Of a stretch of DNA of 64,000 bases, positions 15,091 to 21,576 are shown piece after piece. Position 1 is the stretch's first letter. Each line of letters begins with the position of its first letter. The translations under genes and the position numbers were made by a program. The stretch is taken from contig NZ_CP069303.1 of the NCBI RefSeq assembly GCF_016839145.1, positions 2,046,001 to 2,110,000 on the forward strand. Reading direction: 5' to 3'. A model generated the notes under the pieces. The model did not search any database. It was not told the DNA's origin and saw only the letters and a program-made list of their open reading frames with translations. Source of the stretch: Shinella sp. PSBB067 (lineage in GTDB: Bacteria; Pseudomonadota; Alphaproteobacteria; Rhizobiales; Rhizobiaceae).

Positions 15091-17256
15091 ATGAACACCA
15101 TTTCGCGCGCACGGCTGGTTTCCACCACGGCGCTTGCGGCCCTAGGCTTCACCATCGCGGCAGCCGGGGAGGCACGGGCCCAGCAGGCCGACGAGGCGAC
15201 GACGCTCGAAGCCGTTGTCGTCACCGGCACCAAGCGCCCGCAGGAAGACGCCTCCCTGCCCGTCGCAACGACGATCCTCGGCCCGGAAAACGTGAAGCCC
15301 TCCTCGCTCGATCCGGTCGGCGACGTGGCCCGGCAGACGCCGGGCACGAATTTCATGGATTTCGGCCGCTTCGGCGAAAGCTACATGACCATGCGCGGCC
15401 TCTCCACGCTCGGCTCGGCGATGAACTCGCTCGACAGCGTGATCGGCCTTTCCGTCGATGGCGTTCCGACGACGCTCTCGGCGATCGGCGCCCCCTTCCT
15501 CGATGTCGAGCAGGTCGAGGTGCTGCGCGGCCCGCAGGGCACGACCTTCGGCCGCAACGCCTTCGCCGGCGCGATCAATGTGGTGAGCAAGCCCGCCGAC
15601 GGGACGAAGGAGAACATTGTCAGCACGGAGATCGGTTCCGATGGCCATGCCTTCATCGAGGGCACCACGGGCGGCTGGCTGATCGACGACCTCGTTGCCG
15701 GCCGCACGACGTTGCGTTTCCAGAAATTCGATGGCGACATTCCGAACCCGATCACCGGCAAGGACGAGGGCAGCGCGAAGCTCGGCGCGGCGCGCGGCAC
15801 GCTGCGCATCACGCCGGACGATTCGTTCACCGTCGACATCACCGGCGGCTTTTCCAGGGACACCCGGCACAACTCCGCCTTCCTCCTGCTGGAATCGCCC
15901 GACTTCCCGATCAGCGGCGCCGACACCACGCCGGTCAACCGCCAGCAGATCGCCAATGGCTCGATCAAGCTCACCAAGGAATTCGAGCCCTTCATCCTGA
16001 CCGCGACGACGAGCTACCAGGACATCAAGCTGCACAATACCGGCGACTTCACCGACGCCTTCATCTTCTCCAACGCCACCGGCCTGCCGCCGTCGTTCTT
16101 CAACGACCCCAACGCGCAGAAGGTGGTTTTCGACGACCACGAGCGCATCTTCAACCAGGAAGTCCGCCTCAACTCGCATGAAGACGCGGCCGTGCAATGG
16201 GTCGTCGGCGCGAACTATTTCAAATCGGACTTCACGACCCATCGCGTGCAGGATGTCGGCAGCTACTCGCCGACGCTGAACGGCACCTTCGACAACGCCA
16301 TCGACAGCGAGACGATCGCGGCCTTCGCCGACGCGGCGGTGCCGCTCGACGAACGTTTCACGCTTTCGGGCGGCCTGCGCCTTGCCCATGACAGGCAGAC
16401 GCTCGACGCCAACTATGTCTCCAACGGCTTCCCCGGCACCATCCCGGCCTTCGCGCAGGACAACGCCTTCAGCGACACCTACCTGACCGGCCGCATGGCG
16501 CTCTCCTACAAATGGAACGACCGCGCCATGAGCTATGCCTCCGTGGCGCGCGGCTATTCCTCCGGCGGCTTCGAGAAGACGACGGCCTATGCCGGCTTCG
16601 GCCTGCCCTCGACTCCCTTCCTGCCGGCGACGTCGTGGACCTACGAGATCGGCACCAAGGCCGAGCTGACCGATGCCATTCGCGTCAGCGGGGCGATCTT
16701 CTACAACGACGTGAAGGACGGCCAGCTCACGGGCTTCGATCCGGGTACGCTGCTGCCTTTCATGACGAACCAGGCCTTCGAGAGCTACGGCGTGGAAGCG
16801 AACGTGACCGCCACGGTTGCCGACGGGCTGGATTTCACGGTGGGCGGCGCTCTCATCAATTCCCGCCTCGTCGACGTCACGCCGCAATCGGCGCTCGCGG
16901 GGGCGCTGGAGGGCAACAAGGTGCCGCAGGTGCCCGGCTTCTCCGCCAATCTCGGCGTCACCTACCGCACGGAGGCCGATGCGCTCGGCTTTGCCGGCGA
17001 ATTCTTCGTCGGCGCCAACTACCAGTATGTCGGCACCCGCTATTCGGACATCCAGAACAGTGCGAAGATGGCGGCCTACCACATCGTCAATGCGGAACTC
17101 GGCTGGGAGAAGGACAACCTGAAGGTCTACGCCTTCGGACGAAACCTGCTCGACGAGCGCCCGCTCTCCTACGCCTTCACCTACGCGCCGGGAACGACGG
17201 CCGCCTATATCGGCCGCGGCCGCGTCATCGGCCTGGGGGCGACGATCAAGTGGTAG
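15091..17256 (+). CDS. TonB-dependent siderophore receptor
   Basis: 721 aa from the ATG at 15091, preceded by GGGGACAAGG. Residues 1-29 form a signal peptide ending ARAQQ. The plug domain follows: TLEAVVVTGTKRPQED as the TonB-box region, then VEVLRGPQGTTFGRNAFAGAINVV near residue 145-170. The rest is a 22-strand-type barrel ending in an aromatic-poor IGLGATIKW terminus with the final tryptophan typical of outer-membrane beta-barrels. It would import a ferric siderophore across the outer membrane. It precedes the IrtA/IrtB-like genes by 76 bases, all on the same strand. Confidence 0.92.
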   Translation: MNTISRARLVSTTALAALGFTIAAAGEARAQQADEATTLEAVVVTGTKRPQEDASLPVATTILGPENVKPSSLDPVGDVARQTPGTNFMDFGRFGESYMTMRGLSTLGSAMNSLDSVIGLSVDGVPTTLSAIGAPFLDVEQVEVLRGPQGTTFGRNAFAGAINVVSKPADGTKENIVSTEIGSDGHAFIEGTTGGWLIDDLVAGRTTLRFQKFDGDIPNPITGKDEGSAKLGAARGTLRITPDDSFTVDITGGFSRDTRHNSAFLLLESPDFPISGADTTPVNRQQIANGSIKLTKEFEPFILTATTSYQDIKLHNTGDFTDAFIFSNATGLPPSFFNDPNAQKVVFDDHERIFNQEVRLNSHEDAAVQWVVGANYFKSDFTTHRVQDVGSYSPTLNGTFDNAIDSETIAAFADAAVPLDERFTLSGGLRLAHDRQTLDANYVSNGFPGTIPAFAQDNAFSDTYLTGRMALSYKWNDRAMSYASVARGYSSGGFEKTTAYAGFGLPSTPFLPATSWTYEIGTKAELTDAIRVSGAIFYNDVKDGQLTGFDPGTLLPFMTNQAFESYGVEANVTATVADGLDFTVGGALINSRLVDVTPQSALAGALEGNKVPQVPGFSANLGVTYRTEADALGFAGEFFVGANYQYVGTRYSDIQNSAKMAAYHIVNAELGWEKDNLKVYAFGRNLLDERPLSYAFTYAPGTTAAYIGRGRVIGLGATIKW

Positions 17257-17332
17257 GCAGCGCCGCAGCATTCTCGCGCAGCCCGGTCATGCCGGCGGGG
17301 CCGCGCCTTTCCGTTCTTTCGCGGGGCTGCTG

Positions 17333-19870: not shown

Positions 19871-21576
19871 TCATCTCCGCCCTCCTGCCGCCGGAGGCGC
19901 GCCCGCGCCTCGCCCCCTTTGCCGTCCTCGTCATCGTGGCGGCTGCATTGCGCGCGACATCCGCGCTTGCGCTCGTGCCGCTGCTCGGCGCGCTGTTCTC
20001 GCCGGTTCCGCAGGGCGCCCTGCCCTGGCTCGGCCTGCTTGCCGCCGGCGTCGGGGCCGGCTGGGCGCTGGAGCGCTTCCTGGTGATCCGCGCCTTCGAT
20101 CTCGGCTTTGCCATGATGACCTCGATGAACGCCCGCCTTGTCGATCATCTCCTCGCCGTGCCCGTCGGCTGGTTCGGCGCCGAGCAGCAGGCGCAGGCGA
20201 AACGCGCCCTCGCCGGCGCCGTGCCCGAGCTCTTCGCAAGCTCGGTCAATCTGGCGACGCAGGCCTCCATCGCCGCGACGCTGCCGTTCACCATCGGTAT
20301 CGGCCTTCTTTTCGTCGCCTGGCCGCTCGGCCTCGCGGCGCTTGCCGCCGCCCCCCTACTGCTCGGCGCGCTGTTGCTCGGCGGACGGCTGATGCGCCGC
20401 GCCGAGGCCGATTTCGCCGCCGCCTCGGGCGAGGCGGCCGCCCGCACGGAGGAATTCGCCCACGCCCAGCTCGTGCTGCGCGCCGCCGGCCGCACCGGCA
20501 TGGAGGGCACGCCGCTCGGCGCGGCGATCGACGCCCAGAAGGCCGGGGGATTGCGCGTGCTCTGGTTCACCCTGCCCGGCACGCTGCTTTTCTCGCTTGC
20601 CATGCAGGGCACCCTCGTCGCCATGGTGGCCGTCCTGGCACTCCTCTATTTGGACGGCACCGTCGACGCCGCCCGCACGGTGGCCCTGATCGTCGTGGTG
20701 CTGCGCTTCCTGGAGCCGCTGAACACCCTGTCGGAGCTTTTCCCCGCGCTGGAATCCACCCATGCCGCCGCCGGGCGCACCCTTGCCGTGCTCGACGTGC
20801 CGGCCCAGCCGGTCCCGGCGCGGGACAGCACGCCCGGCACACCGGAGATCGAATTCCGCGATGTGCATTTCCACGCCAACGGCACGCATATCCTCGACGG
20901 CGTCACCTTCACCGCCCCGGCCGGCAAGACGACCGCGCTTGTCGGCCCCTCCGGTTCCGGCAAGAGCACGATCCTCTCTCTGATCGCCCGCCTGCACGAT
21001 GTTTCCGCGGGCGAGATCCGCGTCGCAGGTCATGATGTGCGCGCCTACGAGCCCGCCACCCTGATGGACCAGCTTTCCATCGTCTTCCAGAACGTGCAGC
21101 TCTTCGAAGGCGGCATTGCCGAGAACATTCGCCTCGCCCGCCCGGGGGCCGGCAATGCGGCGCTGCGCGAGGTCGCGGCCACAGCCTGTGTCGACGAGAT
21201 CGTGGAACGCCTCGGCAGTTGGGACGCGCCGGTCGGCGAAGGCGGCAACAATCTGTCAGGCGGCGAGCGCCAGCGCGTCAGCATCGCCCGCGCGCTCCTC
21301 AAGAACGCGCCGATCCTGCTGCTCGACGAAGCGACAAGCGGCCTCGACACGTTGAACGAGGTGGCCATCGCCACCGCGCTTGCCCGCTTCGGCCACCGCA
21401 CCGCTTTCATTGTCGCGCATCGCATCGAGACGATCGCCAGAGCAGACCACATTCTTTTCATCGAAAACGGCCGCATCGTCGAATCCGGCGATCGCAACGA
21501 CCTGATCGCCGCCGGAGGCAGGTTCGCCGCCTACTGGAACAGCCGGCGCCAGGCGAAAGACTGGACACTGGCCTGA
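19867..21576 (+). CDS. IrtB-like ABC transporter permease/ATP-binding protein
   Basis: 569 aa from a GTG at 19867 that overlaps the IrtA-like stop codon (GTGA). Exporter-fold: about six hydrophobic helices in residues 1-310, then an ATPase with Walker A GPSGSGKST (360-368), Q-loop IVFQNVQLFEG, signature LSGGERQRVSIARAL and Walker B ILLLDEATSGLD. It lacks a SIP domain, as IrtB does. It should form a heterodimer with the preceding protein; YbtP/YbtQ of yersiniabactin uptake is the related pair without a flavin domain. Role: inner-membrane import of a ferric siderophore. Confidence 0.88.
   Translation: MIISALLPPEARPRLAPFAVLVIVAAALRATSALALVPLLGALFSPVPQGALPWLGLLAAGVGAGWALERFLVIRAFDLGFAMMTSMNARLVDHLLAVPVGWFGAEQQAQAKRALAGAVPELFASSVNLATQASIAATLPFTIGIGLLFVAWPLGLAALAAAPLLLGALLLGGRLMRRAEADFAAASGEAAARTEEFAHAQLVLRAAGRTGMEGTPLGAAIDAQKAGGLRVLWFTLPGTLLFSLAMQGTLVAMVAVLALLYLDGTVDAARTVALIVVVLRFLEPLNTLSELFPALESTHAAAGRTLAVLDVPAQPVPARDSTPGTPEIEFRDVHFHANGTHILDGVTFTAPAGKTTALVGPSGSGKSTILSLIARLHDVSAGEIRVAGHDVRAYEPATLMDQLSIVFQNVQLFEGGIAENIRLARPGAGNAALREVAATACVDEIVERLGSWDAPVGEGGNNLSGGERQRVSIARALLKNAPILLLDEATSGLDTLNEVAIATALARFGHRTAFIVAHRIETIARADHILFIENGRIVESGDRNDLIAAGGRFAAYWNSRRQAKDWTLA

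Follow-up and report, generated by a model that had tools for sequence, protein, structure and literature searches.

A four-gene locus with IrtA-like and IrtB-like proteins

Shinella sp. PSBB067 is a rhizobia-related soil bacterium whose 5.77-Mb genome is assembled into 4 contigs. In a window of 64,000 nucleotides (the whole stretch of DNA analysed here, positions 2,046,001 to 2,110,000 of NZ_CP069303.1), we studied a cassette of four genes that encode an AraC-family regulator, a TonB-dependent outer-membrane receptor, and two ATP-binding cassette (ABC) half-transporters that resemble IrtA and IrtB, the siderophore importer of mycobacteria. The list of open reading frames (ORFs) places the receptor, the 845-amino acid (aa) protein with SIP and ABC domains, and the second ABC half where an original prediction for this DNA had put them (Table 1).

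Comparison of the 845-aa protein with Pfam revealed, in order, the domains FAD_binding_9, SIP, ABC_membrane, and ABC_tran, and its alignment to IrtA of Mycobacterium tuberculosis is co-linear over residues 5-841 (E 2.7e-225). The IrtA chains of PDB entries 6tej and 7wiu match it well above chance level, with 757.9 and 753.6 bits (E 1.4e-226 and 2.7e-225), as against 332.5 bits (E 5.7e-98) for P-glycoprotein, the best chain other than IrtA, and 239.1 bits for YbtPQ (chain A of 6p6i and 8vsi). The SIP domain alone scores 203 bits to IrtA and 64 bits to ViuB, and the protein is 44-50% identical to the mycobacterial proteins compared. Members of the YbtPQ type are SIP-less and closest to YbtP or YbtQ; the Shinella protein has its SIP domain fused and scores 239 bits there versus 754-758 bits to IrtA, and so falls outside that type. 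Sequence comparison thus confirms the 845-aa protein as an orthologue of IrtA, with a flavin adenine dinucleotide (FAD)/SIP domain, a proline-rich linker, and an exporter-type ABC half, the order that the original prediction had recognized and with which both the Pfam order and the full-length match agree.

The overlapping half-transporter, predicted to be IrtB-like, matches IrtB with 440 bits (E 1.1e-130) as compared to 244 bits for chain B of 6p6i (YbtQ). We note that the ORF list starts this gene at a GTG at 19840, and that an alternative GTG at 19867 is preceded by GGGGAAAGGAAAG and overlaps the irtA stop codon by 4 bp. The Chelatococcus irtB gene has the identical 4-bp overlap, with ATG as its start codon. 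The GTG at 19867 appears to be the likelier start. By sequence, the Shinella pair is a genuine IrtAB, an importer type that is already known, found here in a Gram-negative bacterium together with a TonB receptor.

Table 1 Features of the Shinella sp. PSBB067 locus, in window coordinates unless given as residues.
Feature	Position	Strand	Basis
First AraC gene, outside module	12849-13853	+	ORF list
Conserved 7.67-kb module	13893-21566	+	blastn against other Shinella loci
RirA-type operator candidate, TTGA-N9-TCAA	13903-13919	+	44 bp upstream of AraC start
AraC-family regulator of module (HTH_18)	13964-14968	+	ORF list, Pfam
Direct repeat, 2 x 16 bp, candidate AraC-regulator site ahead of receptor gene	14985-15021	+	repeat found by computation
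FyuA-type TonB-dependent outer-membrane receptor, 721 aa	15091-17256	+	ORF list, Pfam
IrtA, 845 aa	17333-19870	+	ORF list, Pfam, alignment
IrtA SIP/FAD domain	aa ~1-245
IrtA proline-rich linker	aa ~246-270
IrtA transmembrane domain (TMD)	aa ~271-600
IrtA nucleotide-binding domain (NBD)	aa ~601-845
IrtB half-transporter	19867-21576 (ORF list: from 19840)	+	ORF list, IrtB match, ABC-B tree

Phylogenetic placement of the IrtA and IrtB halves

Phylogeny against IrtAB and YbtPQ had been chosen beforehand as a test by which the original prediction could be refuted. We built trees of the ABC parts of IrtA (ABC-A) and IrtB (ABC-B) and of the SIP domain, with rows chosen by hand from the loci and proteins fetched. 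In the 75-row ABC-A tree the 17 alphaproteobacterial rows form one clade (100, starred) that lies inside a 42-row SIP-fused clade (100, starred), and a bootstrapped ABC-A tree of 50 rows again puts the alphaproteobacterial clade within the SIP-fused clade. The next group outside that clade consists of eight actinobacterial rows, seven of them from Nocardia, and six of these seven have a separate SIP gene nearby. The ABC-B tree (50 rows) likewise contains one alphaproteobacterial clade (5 rows) inside an 18-row SIP-fused clade, both starred. The SIP tree (62 rows), in which the alphaproteobacterial clade (100, starred) belongs to a larger group of 57 rows, 46 with fused and 11 with stand-alone SIPs, gave long-branch warnings, and we rely on it only for the alphaproteobacterial clade itself; it is compatible with IrtAB membership. 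Both ABC halves therefore fall inside the SIP-fused IrtAB clade, and the placement that would have refuted the original prediction did not appear.

In the bootstrapped ABC-A tree the alphaproteobacterial clade adjoins six Nonomuraea/Phytomonospora-type proteins (86/81, not starred), and the actinobacterial fused proteins were held together in only 2% of 200 bootstrap trees. Because of these neighbours in the tree, an actinobacterial origin of the IrtAB part is plausible. We do not regard such a donor, or the direction of transfer, as settled: an approximately unbiased test did not reject the actinobacterial fused proteins as one clade (p 0.288), and in the ABC-B tree these proteins stand together (support 13), with the alphaproteobacterial clade not nested in them.

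The four genes form a module with sharp limits

To define the extent of the locus we compared positions 5001-30000 of the window by blastn with three other Shinella loci of 17-18 kb each (L099, L100, and L101) and with a 22.6-kb Chelatococcus locus (L075). Each Shinella locus aligned in one long block, 13893-21566 for L099 and 13893-21564 for L100 (both 92% identical) and 13900-21564 for L101 (85%), and outside this module only one 268-base paralogous match was found in them. The Chelatococcus locus aligned in three blocks that cover the same genes. The flanks of the module differ between the Shinella loci, except that L099 and L100 have theirs in common, so that the module is present at three sites in Shinella, with a less similar copy in Chelatococcus. 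Given the sharp limits of homology and the differing flanks, we take the inherited unit to be the AraC, receptor, irtA, and irtB genes together with their promoter; the proposal that these make up a four-gene unit holds, as the receptor and AraC genes travel with irtA and irtB.

Full-length matches occur in 4 of 61 relatives (43 of the 61 exceed a loose threshold, mostly through other ABC genes) and, within the genus, in 4 of the 21 genomes compared. In even samples of 249 genomes of the order, 385 of the class, and 398 of the phylum, only the source genome has a full-length match; the remaining matches, in 2, 4, and 1 genomes, respectively, are without the SIP part. This patchy spread and the changing flanks speak for horizontal movement of the module.

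Among the protein matches listed, 45 clusters are 55-96% identical to Shinella IrtA, and the 15 of them that we put in trees form one clade. The importer thus does occur outside Actinobacteria, as predicted, though it is not unique to this strain. Organism names accompany seven of the 45 clusters (Shinella zoogloeoides, which is the closest named protein at 96% identity, two Bosea, Phyllobacterium, a Rhizobium and a Rhizobiaceae metagenome-assembled genome, and 'bacterium YEK0313'), and four carry the JGI annotation "IrtA". Among the matches listed from a scan of genome contigs, otherwise filled with Actinobacteria, the single full-length alphaproteobacterial protein is that of Chelatococcus reniformis. 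An indirect count of co-occurrence, based on exactly equal lengths of the longest contig, over 119 receptor and 120 AraC rows among the matches listed and leaving out P0046, P0047, and P0055, paired 20 of the 45 IrtA clusters with a receptor or AraC relative, versus none of 72 actinobacterial clusters. P0046 (1457 aa) and P0047 (1447 aa) apparently hold IrtA and IrtB in one chain and are 48% identical to Shinella IrtA.

Elsewhere in the window, GC content falls to 0.54-0.58 over 28000-36000, compared to 0.60-0.71 in the other 2-kb steps. This segment adjoins a tRNA-Met gene (36334-36409) and may be a tRNA-borne genomic island; three ORFs tested in it gave nothing above the Pfam cut-off.

Receptor, regulator, and candidate control elements

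The receptor has the Pfam domains Plug and TonB_dep_Rec, with no N-terminal signalling domain found by Pfam, and its closest solved relative is FyuA (about 25% identity). Ahead of it, where a PchR-like activator had been predicted, there are in fact two AraC genes, of which only the second belongs to the module. This second protein is 90% identical in L099 and 64% identical in the Chelatococcus locus, and resembles the AraC protein of a Pantoea cluster (36.6% over 134 aa). Family models do not confirm the label 'PchR-like': Pfam reports HTH_18 only, all NCBIfam AraC matches are below cut-off, and no model names the N-terminal part. As for the first AraC gene, directly before the module, its product is FeaR-like with a score of 134 bits, below the 199-bit cut-off, and we rejected it as a part of the system because L099, L100, L101, and L075, the relatives that we examined, all gave no match to it.

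Three to ten bases inside the edge of the module, depending on the locus compared, is the only exact match in the window to TTGA-N9-TCAA, which we take to be the RirA-type consensus. It overlaps a -35-like hexamer, TTGACT, and a candidate of the same kind, with a varying spacer, is found upstream of the AraC gene in all four Shinella loci, which amount to three independent sequences because L099 and L100 are near-identical; it is absent from the one Chelatococcus locus. This element is a candidate iron-responsive operator. Ahead of the receptor gene there is a 16-bp direct repeat whose copies are 81% identical and start 21 bp apart, and which on visual inspection is present upstream of the receptor gene in each of the four Shinella loci. 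It is a candidate binding site for the AraC regulator of the module.

Conserved residues and selection on the SIP domain

The SIP domain contains the flavin motif RxYT, of which R70 and T73 are conserved in all 17 alphaproteobacterial rows and Y72 in 16. In IrtA, the Walker A, Q-loop, and signature motifs and the catalytic glutamate are all intact. In IrtA of M. tuberculosis, according to PMC10246721, His356, His402, and His407 hold a metal ion. Their counterparts by alignment, H350, H396, and H401, occur in all 17 alphaproteobacterial rows, in 72, 70, and 72 of 72 family rows, respectively, and in 2, 0, and 2 of three outgroup rows. As the full triad is found in 70 of the 72 family rows, SIP-less ones included, it characterizes the larger family and is not peculiar to mycobacteria or to IrtA. 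These histidines have probably been studied by others already, since the titles of PDB entries include 'IrtAB 3xHtoA mutant'.

We compared Shinella IrtA with its counterparts in L099, L101, and Chelatococcus and obtained, in this order, ratios of nonsynonymous to synonymous substitution (dN/dS) of 0.09, 0.10, and 0.13 for the SIP domain, 0.22, 0.08, and 0.15 for the TMD, 0.12, 0.12, and 0.23 for the NBD, and, over 25 codons only, 0.40, 0.44, and 0.21 for the linker. By these ratios, purifying selection maintains the SIP domain and is as strong on it as on the transporter parts. The domain is predicted to bind FAD and to reduce the ferric siderophore.

These ratios bear on a different account of the same importer, in which the SIP domain is dispensable: ligand exchange or other SIP proteins in the cytosol would free the iron, leaving the fused domain as a tether or a relic. 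Such an arrangement would be in keeping with the Nocardia relatives whose SIP is a separate nearby gene, with the presence of another SIP gene in the host, and with the statement of PMC10246721 (citing Arnold 2020) that the siderophore interaction domain of mycobacterial IrtA is essential for the uptake of mycobactin but not of carboxymycobactin. Against it stand a SIP dN/dS that is the lowest of the IrtA parts in two of the three comparisons (in the third the TMD has 0.08 versus 0.10) and an RxYT motif conserved in nearly all rows, and we consider it unlikely. Apart from the fused domain, two SIP matches were noted in the host genome: a gene (L113, contig C3:455361) that by eye lies beside apparent FecCD-type permease and ATPase genes, and a match (L115, contig C2:3118526) that is split over two frames.

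A proposed route for reductive uptake of a foreign siderophore

We think it very probable that the module is a self-contained, iron-controlled cassette for the uptake of a foreign ferric siderophore with reductive release of its iron. Its genes and their orthology, its limits, the motifs that are conserved, and the selection acting on the SIP domain are all observed; the transport, redox, and regulatory steps would each be as follows. The receptor, together with TonB, would bring the ferric siderophore across the outer membrane, and the IrtA-IrtB heterodimer, an exporter-shaped importer in a cassette that has no binding protein, would take it across the inner membrane. On the cytosolic side, the SIP domain of IrtA with its FAD would reduce Fe3+ to Fe2+, so releasing the iron. 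The AraC protein, itself behind the candidate iron-responsive operator, would turn on the receptor, irtA, and irtB genes, probably when the siderophore is inside.

A search of the host genome for two kinds of siderophore synthetase domain, Condensation and IucA/IucC, found neither, and the cargo is therefore likely to be a foreign siderophore. A weaker guess is that it is salicylate-capped (hydroxyphenyl-oxazoline/thiazoline); in other Gram-negative bacteria FyuA-type receptors adjoin SIP-less ABC pairs, once along with a salicylate synthase and a non-ribosomal peptide synthetase (NRPS). The type IV exporter fold, and a structure model that generic exporters fit equally well, would also suit a pair that exports a siderophore or drug, with the SIP domain acting on cytosolic cargo. 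We find this highly improbable in the face of orthology to an importer shown as such by experiment, the three metal-binding histidines, a TonB receptor conserved along with the pair, and the absence of both kinds of synthetase domain sought. We find import of a zinc or copper metallophore, with the SIP domain used for something else, highly improbable as well: the receptor is FyuA-like, and the yersiniabactin that YbtPQ takes up can carry Fe, Cu, or Zn (PMC10246721), but a fused ferric-siderophore reductase domain under selection and an iron-responsive operator candidate at the start of the module argue against it.

With regard to history, the uptake cassette could be a chimeric iron-piracy module, in which a Gram-negative FyuA/AraC-type receptor and regulator were joined once to an actinobacterial reductive IrtAB. 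The 7.67-kb unit would then have moved whole between Hyphomicrobiales, letting non-producers use the salicylate-capped siderophores of soil actinobacteria, with the iron freed at the inner membrane. We offer this scenario tentatively, and doubt it more than we believe it.

Comparison with known systems

The open-licence literature, judged from titles and the starts of abstracts, yielded no SIP-fused IrtA with a TonB receptor, and the accessible parts of PMC8891985, PMC10846271, and PMC12649976 contain no description of that arrangement. SIP-fused IrtAB importers occur beyond Actinobacteria as well, and the histidine triad known from mycobacteria extends through a wider family. If our interpretation is true, SIP-fused IrtAB works together with an ordinary TonB receptor, and Shinella would provide a harmless Gram-negative host in which to dissect the coupling of import to iron reduction. 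Natural comparisons are on offer too, because there are related cassettes that have this receptor type but no SIP domain.

YbtPQ, the yersiniabactin system (PDB 6p6i, 8vsi), is likewise an exporter-fold heterodimeric siderophore importer and accompanies the FyuA receptor and an AraC regulator. It differs in having no SIP domain and scores only 239 and 244 bits to Shinella IrtA and IrtB, and YbtP has an aspartate in place of one metal-binding histidine (PMC10246721).

Cassettes with a FyuA-like receptor and a SIP-less pair of ABC half-transporters (L108-L111, Pantoea sp. At-9b L120, Shinella sp. WSC3-e L121, and Neorhizobium L122) share the receptor and the pair with our locus, and five of the seven also have an AraC regulator. 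No fused SIP was found in L108-L111, and the ABC genes annotated in L120-L122, at about 580-610 aa, leave no room for one; L120 and L121 adjoin NRPS genes, and the pairs of L121 and L122 are known from annotation only. In another genome of the same order, L112 has at 7351-10404 a SIP frame (80 bits) followed by an ABC half-transporter frame (316 bits) with a single TGA between them. These may be two adjacent genes or a fusion that has been broken, and by score they are far from the IrtA clade.

The Nocardia pairs that resemble IrtAB (L057, L059, L063, L065, L066, and L068) have the same three parts, and the ABC trees place them as sister to the fused proteins. Their SIP, however, has a gene of its own, which lies on the opposite strand either directly beside the pair or within 1.6 kb of it, and no outer-membrane receptor is expected. 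Closest to the Shinella pair is mycobacterial IrtAB (PDB 6tej, 7wiu, 9fxc, and others), with which it shares a co-linear SIP-linker-ABC IrtA, an adjacent IrtB, the histidine triad, the flavin motif, and a place in the same SIP-fused clade of the ABC trees. Unlike the mycobacterial system, it belongs to an outer-membrane-bearing alphaproteobacterium without NRPS condensation domains, and its cassette also encodes a TonB receptor and a dedicated AraC regulator.

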